Part shown: positions 8,948 through 15,234 of the stretch, in pieces
How positions within the stretch are numbered: position 1 is the first letter of the stretch
Layout: every line of letters begins with the position of its first letter
Source: Dehalococcoidia bacterium
Lineage (GTDB): Bacteria; Chloroflexota; Dehalococcoidia; Dehalococcoidales; W111
Length of the DNA: 35,085 nt
Assembly: GCA_011191985.1 (NCBI GenBank)
Contig: DUEU01000071.1
Location: forward strand, 55,467-90,551
Direction: 5' to 3'
Notes under the pieces: generated by a model
Database searches by the model: none
What the model saw: the letters and a program-made list of their open reading frames with translations, nothing else
Told to the model about the DNA's origin: nothing
Program-made: the position numbers and the translations under genes

Positions 8948-9403
8948 TTAATCCTGATAGGTGCAGCCCATAAGCTGATCGAAAGCTGCCTTCAATCTCT
9001 GCGAGATGACGTAGGCGACCCCACCAGCAATCTCGGCACAAAGCTTGCAATTGGTATTTATCAGGTTACGCAGCTCCATGCCGTCAAAAGCGAGCACCTT
9101 TGTCCTCTCCACGGCTTTCGCCATACACAGGCGGCGGAATGGTGGTATTGTCGCTGCCCAGCCGAAACACTCAAAATTGGACGCGTACTGAATTTGCCGC
9201 TTATCAGTCGGCCCCATCTCTAGGAGAATGGATACCAGACCATCCTCAATTATGTAAATCTTTTCGGCGTGCTTATCCTGGCGGAATATGATTTCCCCCG
9301 GTTCAAACACCTCTTCAGTAGCCATCTTTTCCACGGTTTTCAGGTCAGCCTCATCCAGATAATGGAAAACATCCGACCTTTTCAGTACTTCCAGCTTGTC
9401 CAT
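8948..9403 (-). CDS. Stand-alone cyclic-nucleotide-binding-fold protein
   Basis: 151 residues forming a single cNMP/CRP-type beta barrel: the opening helix DVFHYLDEADLKTVEKMA, the strand EVFEPGEIIFRQDKHAEKIYIIEDGLV, and the C-helix region near residue 120-145. There is no helix-turn-helix after the barrel, so it is not a complete Crp/Fnr regulator. The position of the phosphate-binding cassette reads FECFGWAATIPPFRRLCMAKA, with Arg-Arg near the ligand end, so ligand binding is possible but not certain. Three or four Cys residues (Cys102 region, CKLCAE, MGC) are unusual for this fold. RBS GGGGG is eight bases before ATG. Family is clear; signal and target are unknown. Confidence 0.75.
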   Translation of the reverse strand: MDKLEVLKRSDVFHYLDEADLKTVEKMATEEVFEPGEIIFRQDKHAEKIYIIEDGLVSILLEMGPTDKRQIQYASNFECFGWAATIPPFRRLCMAKAVERTKVLAFDGMELRNLINTNCKLCAEIAGGVAYVISQRLKAAFDQLMGCTYQD

Positions 9404-10250: not shown

Positions 10251-10293
10251 ATGTTAAAATTAATACCGACTCGTGTCTGTGACCTTTGTCTCA
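10251..10293 (-). promoter_or_regulatory. Crp-type activator site upstream of the ferredoxin gene
   Basis: On the minus strand TGAGACAAAGGTCACA (10293-10278) keeps both half-sites of the boxes at 9904 and 11082 and differs only in the centre. At the same spacing as at the other two sites lies TAACAT (10256-10251), a poor -10; CATTAT two bases further on is an alternative. The box overlaps the stop codon of the regulator gene. Confidence 0.6.
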
Positions 10294-10962
10294 ATTAGAT
10301 GCTCCCGCTATACCCCTAAGGGCTTCTTTATCGGTAATAACTATGCGGTGGCGGTCTATTTCGATCACTCCCTCCGATTGAAGCACTTTGAGCGACCGGC
10401 TGACCACCTCACGGGCAGTACCCGCCATGGCAGCCATATCCTGCTGGGTGAGTTGCTGGCCAGGGCTTGTCCCGTCCCCTGCATATTCCAAGAGGACCTT
10501 GGCAACCCTGCCAACGACGGGCCGGAAAGAAAGGTCCTCGACAAGCGACACCAGATGACGCACCTGAGCTGCCAATACGTTGGCAACGCTGACGGCTACC
10601 TGAGGGTGCTCCTGGAGGAATAAATCCAGGGAGTGCTTTGGTATGCCATATAGAGTAACCGGCCCCATGGCCTGGGCACTGGCCAGGTTTAGACCGCCAT
10701 CAAAGGCGGGCACATCGTTAAATGATTCTCCAGGGCGGACAATATTCAGCACCTGCTCTTTACCCTCGGCTGATGTCCGGAACATCTTCACCACGCCGGA
10801 GCTGACGAAATATAGGGCCTCAGGGGGGTCACCTTCAAATACTATAATGTCACCACGCTCAACCTTTTTCTCAAAGATGAGCTTCTTGACCGAATCAAGT
10901 TCTTCAGTACTTAATCCGGGAAAATAGGCTACAGACTTCAGGAAAGAATTATTTACTGCCAT
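10291..10962 (-). CDS. Crp/Fnr-family transcriptional regulator
   Basis: 223 residues: a cNMP-type barrel (about 10-120), a long dimer helix (about 122-148) and a C-terminal winged helix (about 150-215) with LTQQDMAAMAGTAREVVSRSLKVL. In the recognition helix R184, E185 and R189 match the Arg-Glu-x3-Arg set by which E. coli CRP reads TGTGA. FNR-type residues (E-x2-SR) are absent. The phosphate-binding cassette reads FDGGLNLASA without the Arg-Ser of cAMP-binding CRP, so the ligand is probably not cAMP. It lies between three TGAGAC-N4-GTCACA sites and is the obvious candidate to bind them. No clear ribosome site precedes the ATG. Confidence 0.88.
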   Translation of the reverse strand: MAVNNSFLKSVAYFPGLSTEELDSVKKLIFEKKVERGDIIVFEGDPPEALYFVSSGVVKMFRTSAEGKEQVLNIVRPGESFNDVPAFDGGLNLASAQAMGPVTLYGIPKHSLDLFLQEHPQVAVSVANVLAAQVRHLVSLVEDLSFRPVVGRVAKVLLEYAGDGTSPGQQLTQQDMAAMAGTAREVVSRSLKVLQSEGVIEIDRHRIVITDKEALRGIAGASN

Positions 10963-11081
10963 CGTTATAAAAAAACAAGCCGGTCCTGATTATAACTTCC
11001 CATGATAGTATATCATACAAATAGCCGGTGGTTTTTGAACTCAACCGTTTAACTGGAAAAACCACCTATGTCCGCTGGCAT

Positions 11082-11124
11082 TGAGACTTAAGTCACATAC
11101 ACATGACTACCCCCCATCTATAAT
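11082..11124 (+). promoter_or_regulatory. Crp-type activator site and promoter of the selenoprotein unit
   Basis: TGAGACTTAAGTCACA (11082-11097) is centred at 11089.5. A perfect -10 TATAAT lies at 11119-11124, predicting a start near 11131, which puts the box at -41.5. The leader would be only about 12 bases before ATG 11143. No -35 hexamer is seen, as expected for an activator-dependent promoter. Confidence 0.72.
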
Positions 11125-11142
11125 CTAACTAAATCAAGTGAA

Positions 11143-11313
11143 ATGAATTACGTAATCGGACTGATAGCAGGAGCTCTCATCGGTGGAGTAATCGGGTATG
11201 TCGGCAAATGTGCCGGAAGTACCTGAGGCATTACTGCCAGCCCCTGGTTAGGGGCGATTTTTGGTGCCCTGCTGGGACTTGTTATCGGTGCCGCAATAGG
11301 GGTCAGGACGTAG
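11143..11313 (+). CDS. DUF6132-like small membrane selenoprotein (in-frame UGA at codon 28)
   Basis: Reading through TGA 11224-11226 gives 56 residues: helix 1 (VIGLIAGALIGGVIGYVG), a central loop KCAGST-U-GITASP, then helix 2 (WLGAIFGALLGLVIGAAIG). This is the DUF6132-type layout, where the loop usually reads C-x-x-x-T-C-P-I; here the second Cys is UGA. The two hydrophobic halves are in the same frame on either side of the UGA, and a SECIS-like hairpin follows. Without readthrough only 27 residues would be made. The ribosome site is weak (AAGTGA). It is the first gene of a unit with MsrA, 59 bp apart, behind a Crp-type promoter. The Cys/Sec pair in a membrane hairpin suggests redox or metal handling; the exact role is unknown. 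Confidence 0.78.
11224..11255 (+). promoter_or_regulatory. UGA Sec codon with bacterial SECIS-like hairpin (DUF6132-like gene)
   Basis: After TGA 11224-11226 comes GCCCC-TGGTTA-GGGGC (11240-11255). The apical loop starts 18 nt past the UGA and has G as its second base, fitting the bacterial SECIS rules (loop about 16-37 nt downstream, G in the first two loop bases). Confidence 0.65.
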
Positions 11314-11372
11314 CTATCCTATCAATTCGGTGGCAGGCGGTTTCGTAGCTGATGAAGAGGAGTGAGACCGGA

Positions 11373-12182
11373 ATGGGTAAGCTGAGCAAAGTAACTATAG
11401 TAGCGGTACTCGGCGTGTTTATTCTTGGCTCTTTCTTGAGCTCAGGCCTGGTTGGTTGTAATGAGGAGGATGAGACAATGGGGATAGAAGATGGTGGGCT
11501 TGTTCCCGATGGAGGTATACCGGCCATAGATACGTCGGCACCGGTGAACACGGAAACGGCCACCTTCGCCTTGGGCTGATTCTGGGGGCCCGACTCCCGG
11601 TTCGGGAGTATAGACGGAGTAGTCCGTACCCGTGTCGGGTACGCTGGAGGAAACTCTAATAACCCCACATACCACAACCTGGACGGCCATTCCGAGACTA
11701 TTCAAATTGATTACGACCCGACTAAGGTAACCTATGAGGAGTTACTGGAGGTCTTCTGGGACAGCCATGATCCTACAACGCTGCCATGGTCCCGTCAATA
11801 TATGTCAATTGTGTTCTATCACAACGAGGAGCAGAGACAGATAGCCATTGCCAGTAAGGAGCGTGAGGAGTCCAGACTGGGCCGGCATATTATAACCGAA
11901 ATAATCCCATTTTCAGAGTTTTACCTGGCTGAAGACTACCATCAAAAGTACTATCTGCGCCAGGAGCCGGAACTTTTTCGGGAGTTAAGCGCCATTTACC
12001 CGGATATCGGTGACTTCATAAACTCTACCGCTGTAGCCCGGCTAAACGGCTATGTTGGCGGCTATGGCATACCGGAGACTCTTGAAAAAGAGCTGAATAG
12101 TCTTGGCTTGTCTGAAGCCGGCAAAGTAAGGCTCCAGCAGATCGCCGACAGGGGCCTTGTAGCCGGCTGCTTGGTACCGTGA
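11373..12182 (+). CDS. msrA: Peptide-methionine (S)-S-oxide reductase MsrA, lipoprotein selenoprotein
   Basis: Reduces the S-epimer of methionine sulfoxide. Reading through TGA 11577-11579 (codon 69) gives 269 residues. The catalytic motif normally GCFWG reads GUFWG, followed by VVRTRVGYAGG, NPTYHNLDGHSETIQIDYDP and LLEVFWDSHDPT, all MsrA signatures lying downstream of the UGA in the same frame. The N-terminus has a signal peptide and lipobox LVGC (Cys29), so the enzyme should be an outer-face lipoprotein. ATG 11373 has AGGAG ten bases upstream; ATG 11352 would put it inside. The TGA at 12180 is the true stop. The C-terminal 60 residues (ARLNGYVGGYG, ending AGCLVP) hold a possible resolving Cys. 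Annotation pipelines will split it at codon 69. Confidence 0.9.
11577..11609 (+). promoter_or_regulatory. UGA Sec codon with bacterial SECIS-like hairpin (msrA)
   Basis: ACTCCC-GGTTC-GGGAGT (11593-11609) lies after TGA 11577-11579. The loop begins 19 nt past the UGA and starts with G. The stem can gain one C-G pair, leaving loop GTT. The GGTT loop sequence is shared with the hairpin at 11240. Confidence 0.7.
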
Positions 12183-12205
12183 TTGGCAGTTTCTCCCTGG
12201 TATGC

Positions 12206-12727
12206 CTATAGTGACCCCTCGGTGGTCATTGTCTGGTTACCCCGAAGAAAGACCAGCGAGAAGCGACTGCCTCTGTTCAGGTTAGCCAGGGTACGCTCCA
12301 GATCGCCAGCATTAGCGATGCGCTGCAGGTTTAATTCGGTAATGATGTCACCGGGTGCCAGGCCTATTCTTTCGGAGACCGACCCCGGCCTGACCCGGCC
12401 CACATAGGCGCCGAGCGTTACTCCTGAACCCTGCTTGACCGTGATCTTGCCAGCATCGGCAATCGACGCGCCAAAAGAAGGACGTGGTACCCCTTGTGTT
12501 TTAGTCAGTACCTCTTCAAGCTTTGCTCGGTCAAAGCCAACCACTACCTGTCCGTTGATAATTGTCACCGGCACCCCCATCTGCCCACTGCTTTTCACCA
12601 GCTCCTGGGCGAAAGCCCTGTCTCGCGAAACATCACGCTCCTCAAAGTCTATGCCTCTCTGTGAAAGAAACTCCTTCACTATATGACAATAGGGTCACGT
12701 TGGGGTTGTGTACACTATTACCGCCAT
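12206..12727 (-). CDS. Glutaredoxin-PDZ selenoprotein (in-frame UGA at codon 11)
   Basis: The ATG at 12727 has GGAGG ten bases upstream. Reading through TGA (12697-12695) gives 173 residues starting MAVIVYTTPT-U-PYCHIVKEFL. This is the glutaredoxin/NrdH active site T-P-x-C-P-x-C with the first Cys as selenocysteine. The fold continues with FEERDVSRD, the cis-Pro motif MGVPVTIING and VVVGFDRAKLEEVL. Residues about 80-173 are a PDZ domain (GAYVGRVRPGSVSERIGLAPGDIITELNLQRI), so the reductase is probably docked on a partner. No signal peptide: cytoplasmic. It is 65 bp downstream of the Lon-like gene and convergent with msrA (23 bp between stops). Standard calling would start it at GTG 12679 and lose the active site. 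Confidence 0.88.
12661..12697 (-). promoter_or_regulatory. UGA Sec codon with SECIS-like hairpin (glutaredoxin-PDZ gene)
   Basis: On the minus strand GTGAA-GGAGTTTCT-TTCAC (12679-12661) follows the UGA at 12697-12695. The loop begins 20 nt past the UGA and starts GG; an inner AG/CT pairing is possible. The stem is shorter and less GC-rich than the other two, so support is weaker. Confidence 0.5.
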
Positions 12728-12792
12728 TTACCCGTAACCTCCAGAGATAGAATCTCTCGATTTGGATGCCAAACCTATTAGCAATGCCTGTC

Positions 12793-15234
12793 TCACTTAC
12801 CCTCTTTCTTCTCCTCAGCGTAAAAGCCCTTGAGCCGCTCTGCCATCTCCTTGAGCTTCTTGTCAACCAGGTAATTGATCGTGTCTTCAGGATAGGTGCC
12901 GTCTTTCTGCCTCTCGCCGGCGGGAACGTCGGTCAGTATCTCGACGCCCTCATCTATGTTCCTGGCTGAGTAGATGTGGAATTGGCCTTTACGGACGGCT
13001 TCAACCACTTCCTCGCGCAGCATGAGGTTTCTAAGGTTCTGATTGGGTATTAATACCCCCTGGTCACCGGTGAGTCCTTTGGCCTGGCAGACCTTGAAGA
13101 AACCCTCTATCTTCTGGTTGACACCGCCTATCGGCTGAACCTCGCCTTTCTGGTTCACCGAGCCGGTGACGGCTATATTCTGCTTTATCGGCGTTTCCGA
13201 CAGGCTGGACAGAATGGCATAAAGCTCGGTGGAGGAGGCGCTGTCTCCTTCCACGCCCTCGTAGGACTGCTCGAAACACAGGCTGGCCGAAAGAGACAGG
13301 GGTTTATCCTGGGCATATTTCCAGCCCAGGTAACCGCTCAGAATCATGACCCCTTTATTGTGAATCGGGCCGCTGAGCTGTGACTCCCGCTCGATATTGA
13401 TGACGCCACCACGCCCCAGAAAGGTCTTGGCGGTGATCCTTGACGGCTTGCCGAAGGCGATGTCACCGAGGGTGTAGACACTTAAGCCGTTGACCTGGCC
13501 GACCACGGCACCCTCAGCATCAATCATGATGGTACCCCGGTTTATCATGTCCCGGATTCGTTCGTCAAGCAGGTTGTGCCGGAATAGTCTCTCCTCGATG
13601 GCCTTTTGCACGTGACTGGCGGAGATATACTTGGCATTGTCCCGTGAAGCCCAGTAGTTGGCTTCCTCAATCCAGTCCTTGATCTGGGCAAACCTCGATG
13701 ACAGTCGCTCCTGATCAGCGACTATTCTGGCGGAGTATTCAATGACCTTGGCGACGCCGCTCGGATCAAAGTGCCGGGCTTCACATTCCTCACAGCATCC
13801 AGAGAGGAAGGCGGCATAGGCCAGCATGTTCTCCTTGGTGCTCTCAATCTCAAAATTGAAGTCAGCTTTGACCTTGAAGATCTCCCAGAAGTCCTCGTCA
13901 TACATAGATAATAGCTGGTAGAGCACGGCATCACCGGTAAGGACAACTTTGACCTTTATGGGCATGGGTTCCGGCCTCAATCCCTGAGGGGCAATGAGCC
14001 CGAACTGCTCAAAGGGGTCTTCAATTTTCATCTCTTTATTTTTGATCGCCCGCTTCAGTGCCAGCCAGACGCCAGGATTAATCAGCACATCATTAGCACT
14101 GAGTAACAGATAGCCGCCGTTGGCTTTGCTGAGAGCCCCGGCCTTCAGCATGGTGTGGTCGCTGAGGTAGCCACCGAAGAGGAACCGCCGCTCAATCCTG
14201 CCGAAGACATTGCCGAAATTGGGGTTGCTCTCGACAATCACCGGAGCCCCCTTGGCTTCGCTGTTATCCACGAAGACGTTGACTTGGAAGGGGATAAATG
14301 GATTTCTCCCCCCCATAACCTGGCTGACCGGGACCCCTAATATAGGATGTACCGGCTCTTCGGTACCCTTGAAGATTTCGAGGTTATCGAGTACATAAGT
14401 TTTCAGGTCGGTAAGATACTTGGTTATCTTTGGCCACTTAGAGTATTGCTCAAACAATGAGCCGAACAGGCCAGAGACAGTGTATTCGCCAATATCTTTG
14501 TCTGCTTTCTGTAGTCGCTCCATGGTCTTCGTTTGCACGTTACTGGCAGTTTCCAGGCCGGCCTGTAGCTTCTTGCGCAGCTCGGTCTGTTTTGCATCAA
14601 GTTCTTTCCTGGCGGCCTCCTCCAGGGCGAGGTATTCCTGCTCCTGCATGGGATGGTCGTCTTTAATGGGGATTAGAGCCGGGCCGGACGGAGTCATCTG
14701 AAGAACGAAACCCTGCTGGCGGGCCTCGCTGGATATCTCCTCAAACAACTTCTGCTGCTCAGCCTGTGCTTCTTCAACCGTCTTCTGTCTCTGGTTTTTA
14801 TACTCCTCGCTGGAGAAGGCCTGCCCCAGTCCCTGGCGAATCTTGTTGAGTAAGTCGGTAATCTCATCCCGGAAAACTTTGCCCTTTCCCGGCGGCAGGT
14901 TTGATATTTGCGGATTATCCGGTTCTTTAAAATTGTAGAGGTAACACCAGTCCTCCGGGGTGGAGGTTTCTCCATGGTCTTCTTTTTCCTTGATCACCCT
15001 TTCAATGTAGGCCTTCACCATGGATGTCTTTCCCGTTCCGGTAAGGCCGGCAACATAGATGTTATAGCCCGCGTTGGCCATGTTCAGTCCGAACTCTACC
15101 GCCCGTGTCGCCCGTTCCTGCCCGATGAACTCGCGAAGGGGGGCCAGGTCCTTGGTACACTCAAATTCGAACATTTTGGGGTCACATTCCCAGCGTAGCT
15201 TTTTCACCGGTACTTCATATTCCGTCAGTTCCAT
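12793..15234 (-). CDS. Lon-like ATP-dependent protease (AAA plus Lon_C type)
   Basis: 813 residues. Walker A GLTGTGKTS is at about 63-71 near the N-terminus, without the N-terminal substrate domain of classic LonA. A long coiled-coil-like Glu/Lys/Gln-rich insert (about 130-250) precedes the rest of the ATPase (SKANGGYLLLSANDVL, Walker B region). The C-terminal serine protease domain has EGDSASS with Ser665 and VNQKIEGF with Lys708, 43 residues apart as in E. coli Lon (S679/K722). It degrades or processes proteins in the cytoplasm. RBS GGAGGGAG precedes the ATG. It heads a unit with the glutaredoxin-PDZ gene, which suggests oxidised-protein quality control, an inference from adjacency only. 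Confidence 0.9.
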   Translation of the reverse strand: MELTEYEVPVKKLRWECDPKMFEFECTKDLAPLREFIGQERATRAVEFGLNMANAGYNIYVAGLTGTGKTSMVKAYIERVIKEKEDHGETSTPEDWCYLYNFKEPDNPQISNLPPGKGKVFRDEITDLLNKIRQGLGQAFSSEEYKNQRQKTVEEAQAEQQKLFEEISSEARQQGFVLQMTPSGPALIPIKDDHPMQEQEYLALEEAARKELDAKQTELRKKLQAGLETASNVQTKTMERLQKADKDIGEYTVSGLFGSLFEQYSKWPKITKYLTDLKTYVLDNLEIFKGTEEPVHPILGVPVSQVMGGRNPFIPFQVNVFVDNSEAKGAPVIVESNPNFGNVFGRIERRFLFGGYLSDHTMLKAGALSKANGGYLLLSANDVLINPGVWLALKRAIKNKEMKIEDPFEQFGLIAPQGLRPEPMPIKVKVVLTGDAVLYQLLSMYDEDFWEIFKVKADFNFEIESTKENMLAYAAFLSGCCEECEARHFDPSGVAKVIEYSARIVADQERLSSRFAQIKDWIEEANYWASRDNAKYISASHVQKAIEERLFRHNLLDERIRDMINRGTIMIDAEGAVVGQVNGLSVYTLGDIAFGKPSRITAKTFLGRGGVINIERESQLSGPIHNKGVMILSGYLGWKYAQDKPLSLSASLCFEQSYEGVEGDSASSTELYAILSSLSETPIKQNIAVTGSVNQKGEVQPIGGVNQKIEGFFKVCQAKGLTGDQGVLIPNQNLRNLMLREEVVEAVRKGQFHIYSARNIDEGVEILTDVPAGERQKDGTYPEDTINYLVDKKLKEMAERLKGFYAEEKKEGK

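Follow-up and report, generated by a model that had tools for sequence, protein, structure and literature searches.

The closest described counterpart of the locus analysed here stems from Clostridium oremlandii, in which a selenocysteine (Sec)-containing glutaredoxin (Grx) reduces a Sec-containing MsrA (Kim 2011, as cited in PMC4479559). This enzyme, CoMsrA (PDB 4U66/4LWJ), has its Sec in a GUFWG motif and was described as a 1-Cys enzyme that is monomeric in solution (PMC4479559). For an exported Msr the nearest working model is the extracellular CcdA-Etrx-MsrAB2 pathway of Streptococcus pneumoniae, in which a surface Msr is fed with electrons across the membrane (PMC3914529). The YruB/Uxx-star glutaredoxins and the Trx7/PDZ (seleno)proteins combine a Grx fold with a UxxC motif, and MsrA, Grx, FmdB and Trx7/PDZ are all included in a catalogue of 119 selenoprotein families (PMC13188914). 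The Bacteroidales members of DUF6132 (PF19628) are short two-helix proteins with a Cys pair in a CX4C-type loop.

The window, i.e., the whole stretch of 35,085 nucleotides that was analysed, belongs to a Dehalococcoidia MAG (95% complete, 97 contigs; G000). As in C. oremlandii, a Grx and an MsrA that are both selenoproteins are encoded in one organism, and a third UGA-containing gene of the DUF6132 family lies next to them. The features of the locus are the following:

10291-10962 (-), Crp/Fnr-type regulator (PF00027 and PF13545), divergent from the DUF6132-msrA unit
11143-11313 (+), Sec-DUF6132, membrane hairpin protein of 56 aa with CX4U (C23, U28), stop codon TAG (PF19628, 34.1 bits)
11224-11226 (+), UGA (Sec28) of DUF6132, aligned with the second Cys of the Bacteroidales CX4C
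11240-11255 (+), SECIS-like hairpin of DUF6132, GCCCCTGGTTAGGGGC, -10.1 kcal/mol, loop 19 nt past the UGA
11313-11355 (+), scar of an msrB 3'-end between DUF6132 and msrA, by similarity to contig L047 of genome G006
11373-12182 (+), Sec-MsrA, predicted lipoprotein (lipobox Cys at codon 29) with catalytic domain, selenoprotein-MsrA helical domain and C-terminal Cys
11577-11579 (+), UGA (Sec) of MsrA in a GUFWG motif, conserved in six genomes
11593-11609 (+), SECIS-like hairpin of MsrA, ACTCCC-GGTTC-GGGAGT, -9.8 kcal/mol
12206-12727 (-), Sec glutaredoxin-PDZ fusion with a UPYC active site (PF00462, 6.2e-20, and PDZ domains)
12695-12697 (-), UGA (Sec11) of Grx-PDZ in TUPYC, always the first residue of UxxC/CxxC in orthologues
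12661-12679 (-), SECIS-like hairpin of Grx-PDZ, GTGAAGGAGTTTCTTTCAC, with pairing and compensatory changes in UGA orthologues
12793-15234 (-), LonB/LonC-like AAA protease (PF13654, 2.9e-47), same strand as Grx-PDZ and immediately upstream of it

The sequence-only reading had treated the three genes as one adjacent cluster. The adjacency was verified, but one operon is not formed, because the Grx-PDZ gene is oriented against the co-directional DUF6132 and msrA genes, and the stop codons of msrA and Grx-PDZ face each other across 23 nt. The three genes are thus two convergent transcription units. The Crp/Fnr-type regulator is divergent in G006 (L047) as well, and a second protein with a cNMP-binding domain is encoded at 8948-9403 (-), which lacks the DNA-binding part of the regulator at 10291-10962.

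Decoding of the three UGA codons

Each of the three genes had been proposed to contain one in-frame UGA at a redox Cys position, and homologues indeed have a conserved redox Cys at each of these positions. A UGA is present in the same column in 10/10 DUF6132 matches, in the MsrA of six genomes, and in 28 Grx-PDZ orthologues. Hairpin loops had been placed 18, 19 and 20 nt behind the UGAs; the best folds yielded 19, 19-20 and 22-23 nt, so that only the third distance was slightly off, and the occurrence of GGTT in two of the loops (TGGTTA and GGTTC) was confirmed. The hairpins were scored with the bSECIS rules (PMC13188914), i.e., a loop of 3-9 nt with a G in the first two positions, 16-37 nt from the UGA, and an energy of at most -7.5 kcal/mol. 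A hairpin at the proper distance, with a G at the loop start, is present in every UGA gene. In the window the hairpins of DUF6132 and MsrA also pass the energy limit, while that of Grx misses it in isolation (-6.8 kcal/mol). The model was passed by all six UGA-MsrA genes and the energy limit by only 12 of the 28 UGA Grx-PDZ genes, and it was reached by none of the Cys genes (0/18 Grx-PDZ, 0/28 DUF6132). For DUF6132 only the eleven members found by protein similarity were counted, each UGA member of which has the hairpin, while the members found by a DNA pattern had been selected for it. An Rfam scan of positions 10500-13500 gave chance matches only, with no SECIS family among them.

For Grx-PDZ the energy could be complemented by a comparative analysis. 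The hairpin columns were paired in 92.3% of the cells in UGA genes and in 40.5% in Cys genes, in which pairing resembled that of shuffled columns. Among the UGA genes three pairs had changes on both sides, and the covariation score was reached by no shuffle; the weak isolated hairpin of the window is thus supported by covariation among its UGA orthologues. Because the same columns are conserved in independent genomes and the hairpins are confined to the UGA versions, the UGAs are beyond chance, and together with the exchange against Cys this strongly supports the selenoprotein reading. From this comparison, all three UGAs are almost certainly decoded as Sec. Decoding as Trp or another residue, or readthrough without selenium, seems extremely improbable, and nothing was seen that would favour it: UGA is an ordinary stop codon in this region of the genome, since 11/28 main open reading frames of the window end in TGA (TAA 10/28, TAG 7/28), including HybA (ends at 609), msrA (12182) and Lon, as had been claimed before for HybA and msrA; in addition, the UGAs align with Cys of homologues, and the hairpins track UGA and not Cys.

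The co-occurrence with selABCD was only partly found in this MAG. It contains a genuine SelB above the curated cut-off, while searches for selA, selD and tRNA-Sec yielded none. The possibility that the SelB on contig 59 is a mere paralogue was rejected, as it is 50-53% identical to the SelBs beside selA in three relatives, and as, among 41 genomes of the order, SelBs of this kind were present in each of the 20 with selA, with G000 as the sole further genome to have one. The RF01852 hits of the MAG turned out to be tRNAs for Ser, Leu, Cys, Tyr, Gly and Thr, and none was tRNA-Sec. In relatives selD, selA and selB, often together with tRNA-Sec, form one cluster, so that one or two assembly gaps could explain the absence, which is probably a gap rather than a loss. 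The tetranucleotide composition of the window correlated best with that of the selB contig among the contigs compared (r = 0.925). A recent loss of Sec decoding, with the three UGAs acting as stops in decaying genes, would be in line with the undetected selA, selD and tRNA-Sec, but it is very improbable: a full-length selB remains, the hairpins and reading frames are intact, and in a MAG of this completeness and contig number a single gap could hide several clustered sel genes. Sec decoding in this genome is therefore regarded as very likely. Two further observations were made in the MAG. A CcdA-like gene for a membrane electron carrier (L001:3406-4092) starts 10 nt after selB, on a contig other than that of the window, and one contig (L013, G000:C78) stands apart from the remaining genome in composition (GC content 0.41, correlation with the window r = 0.16) and is possibly foreign to the MAG.

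Sec-MsrA and Sec-Grx-PDZ in relatives

Sec-MsrA and Sec-Grx are known kinds of selenoproteins, and the genes of the window are new members. The MsrA consists of a PMSR domain with the catalytic Sec (PF01625, 1.7e-45) and a helical domain (PF20939, 3.2e-6), the same two domains as in CoMsrA, with which it groups by architecture. Its best match among solved structures was 4U66 (1.4e-61), whereas 5e-33 was the best value for an MsrA other than CoMsrA. The UGA version is conserved in six genomes of the order. The start at 11373 is more likely than that at 11352, since this is where, behind a ribosome-binding site, the L047 orthologue begins. In contrast to CoMsrA, the protein is a predicted lipoprotein with a C-terminal, possibly resolving, Cys. 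In the alignment the window protein shares a lipobox-like Cys with at least three relatives, and the C-terminal Cys occurs in four of six proteins (the window and three relatives) and in neither of the other two; it is a guess that this residue might resolve the selenenic acid.

All three UGA genes were found within 4 kb elsewhere only in G006, which belongs to another family of the order and whose proteins are 82, 78 and 79% identical to those of the window. In G006 msrB lies between DUF6132 and msrA in one unit, two genes part msrA from Grx-PDZ, and there is no Lon. The msrB scar and the msrA start of the window were identical to L047 at 84 of 109 positions (E = 4e-20), and the alignment score of the DUF6132-msrA spacer was 64 (shuffled maximum 29). 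As the spacer matches the 3'-end of the G006 msrB, msrB was lost from the window. On L047, at around 9040-9131, msrB is preceded by a lipoprotein leader (LPLAC...) that shares its reading frame and is separated from it by one TAG codon only; this msrB may once have been, or may still be, an exported lipoprotein. In a further genome, G181, a DUF6132-UGA gene and a Cys-type Grx-PDZ gene follow dnaK and dnaJ at a distance of 0.9 kb from each other, and a gene for a membrane-anchored MsrBA follows 7 kb beyond, all within 10 kb. The expectation of a cluster conserved across the Dehalococcoidia was thus not borne out: the three genes mostly do not co-occur and are clustered in two genomes only, that of the window and G006.

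The Grx-PDZ protein matched the curated models TIGR02196 (91.4, cut-off 88.55) and NF041212 (67, cut-off 66). It differs from the described UxxC glutaredoxins by its C-terminal PDZ fusion, and the Trx7/PDZ model NF041199 matched the PDZ part only, far below its cut-off. Among 46 near-full-length orthologues 28 have UGA and 18 Cys, always at the first active-site position, and the tree contains five Sec/Cys switches, of which at least four are forced by well-supported branches. The family is thus a large series of Sec/Cys exchanges, with the hairpin accompanying UGA and missing from the Cys forms. The association of UGA-Grx-PDZ with selA was positive and modest (23/27 versus 231/366 genomes, p = 0.02), as many genomes of the class have selA anyway; selA was undetected in 4 of the 28 genomes with UGA-Grx-PDZ, including that of the window. 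Within 41 loci a Crp/Fnr-like regulator was a neighbour in nine and DnaJ, DnaK or Lon in a few, and, apart from the window, G006 and G181, the other 40 or so Grx-PDZ loci have neither msr nor DUF6132 nearby. A directly upstream Lon, as in the window, was otherwise found only in one genome of a distant family, next to a UGA form (G080, L137:819-3766). No signal peptide was seen, and because of this and of the chaperone and Lon neighbours the predicted place of Grx-PDZ is cytosolic protein quality control. In two genomes of one genus (G126 and G188; L121 and L126) the Grx-PDZ genes break frame at the same place, at about codon 50, which would be either inherited or a programmed frameshift.

Sec-DUF6132 as a membrane selenoprotein family

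The DUF6132 protein of the window scored above the gathering cut-off of PF19628 (23.2 bits). In 393 Dehalococcoidia genomes the model had ten matches in nine genomes, each with exactly one in-frame UGA and all of these in one column. In contrast, 33 Bacteroidales matches in 31 genomes contained no in-frame stop, and CX4C replaced CX4U; the hits in the wider Chloroflexota were weak partial matches without UGA and were discarded. A pattern of UGA, spacer and hairpin was scanned over 84,980 species genomes. It yielded 37 hits, of which 15 were chance matches unrelated to DUF6132 and 22 were real DUF6132 frames, from Chloroflexota (10), Desulfuromonadales and other Deltaproteobacteria (11, one of them in the isolate Pelovirga terrestris M08fum), and an unclassified genome (1). 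The selA gene was present in 13 of 15 tested genomes with Sec-DUF6132 and absent from the Porphyromonas genome used as negative; in the genome comparison used for UGA-Grx-PDZ, the association was not significant for DUF6132 alone. All 20 aligned Sec members matched PF19628 and none matched an NCBIfam model, DUF6132 is not in the 119-family catalogue of May 2026 (PMC13188914), and in the part of the literature that was searched no paper treating DUF6132 as a family was found. On these comparisons, Sec-DUF6132 (CX4U) is a selenoprotein family missing from the present catalogue and from NCBIfam, and it would add a small membrane selenoprotein family from at least two phyla and a cultured isolate.

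The Sec and Cys forms share the short two-helix layout and differ in that the second Cys is replaced by Sec and that SPW(S)GA is nearly fixed in the Sec members. This near-fixation is apparently due to the overlapping hairpin, which would make DUF6132 a clean natural case of a SECIS hairpin that constrains the overlapping protein sequence. Helices were predicted at residues 2-23 and 34-55 with the Sec in the loop, at low confidence (pLDDT 64), and no solved structure resembling the protein was found by sequence. Lys/Arg residues precede the first helix in Desulfuromonadales members and occur at both ends in Bacteroidales members, which by the positive-inside rule suggests that the termini are inside and the CX4U loop outside. 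The partner Cys of the Sec varies (CX4U, CU or absent, the latter in L177), and a search for a conserved operon or consistent neighbour elsewhere found none. In two genomes (G101, L062/L146; G078, L065/L148) an FmdB-family zinc-ribbon gene lies about 0.4 kb from DUF6132. It ends with SCG(P/T)ARHT-UGA-GPSW-stop, and a conserved hairpin, GTA(A/G)AGC-GGTTC-GCTTTAC, spans the next stop codon; this FmdB is probably a selenoprotein with a layout unlike the catalogued UxxU form.

Possible roles of the three selenoproteins

The best overall explanation, which has good confidence, joins what the comparisons show, three Sec genes in two convergent units, with proposed roles as an exported Msr, a DUF6132 partner and a cytosolic Grx-PDZ. 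The first unit comprises Sec-DUF6132 and then Sec-MsrA, with msrB lost from it, and the second Lon and then Sec-Grx-PDZ. As a lipoprotein, MsrA would be attached to the outside of the cell membrane, where it would repair methionine-S-sulfoxide in exposed proteins, and such an extracytoplasmic role is probable. The CX4U loop of the two-helix DUF6132 would probably be on the same side as MsrA, where DUF6132 could be a thiol/selenol relay or a partner for Msr proteins. This role would fit the gene order DUF6132-msrB-msrA in G006 and the pair in the window, while the variable context elsewhere calls for caution, and it is proposed only tentatively. Still less likely is its most specific form, a Sec-to-Sec relay in which the minimal membrane protein passes electrons to the exported Sec-MsrA for repair outside the cytoplasm. 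The comparison with S. pneumoniae has its differences: the catalytic residue here is Sec, and neither CcdA nor the thioredoxin-like lipoprotein Etrx was found among the window genes beside msrA. Grx-PDZ would reduce thiols in the cytosol in connection with protein quality control (Lon, DnaK/DnaJ), probably outside the Msr pathway.

The sequence-only reading had instead joined all three genes in a methionine-oxidation repair set with a possible electron path across the membrane. Spelled out as one pathway, electrons would pass from the cytosolic Sec-Grx via the membrane Sec-DUF6132 to the lipoprotein Sec-MsrA. The C. oremlandii case makes this idea reasonable, as Grx, but not Trx, reduces the Sec-MsrA of that species (PMC4479559), though the predicted compartments differ in the window, where the Grx carries a PDZ part and is seemingly cytosolic, MsrA is seemingly exported, and a partnership between the two is putative. 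The idea is also favoured by the joint occurrence in the window and G006 and by the neighbourhood in G181. However, the units are convergent, Grx-PDZ usually adjoins Crp, DnaK/DnaJ or Lon and not msr, DUF6132 occurs without msr neighbours, and by prediction the membrane separates MsrA from Grx. What stands of the repair set is thus the co-directional DUF6132-msrA pair, one unit with msrB in G006, and not its extension to Grx-PDZ, which usually has no msr partner, or a consistent neighbour for Sec-DUF6132; the joint pathway of all three genes is partly supported as a proposal and as a whole appears unlikely.

A further explanation, with a chance not far below even, is that Sec-DUF6132 has a job of its own, e.g., as a membrane protein that binds or transports species of sulfur, selenium or metals, and that its adjacency to msrA is incidental. 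It would agree with the varying context in Desulfuromonadales and other Dehalococcoidia and with the varying partner Cys, but both genomes that carry the pair, which are of different families, have DUF6132 co-directional with msr. The CX4C/CX4U loop is a testable redox site for DUF6132, a family of unknown function.
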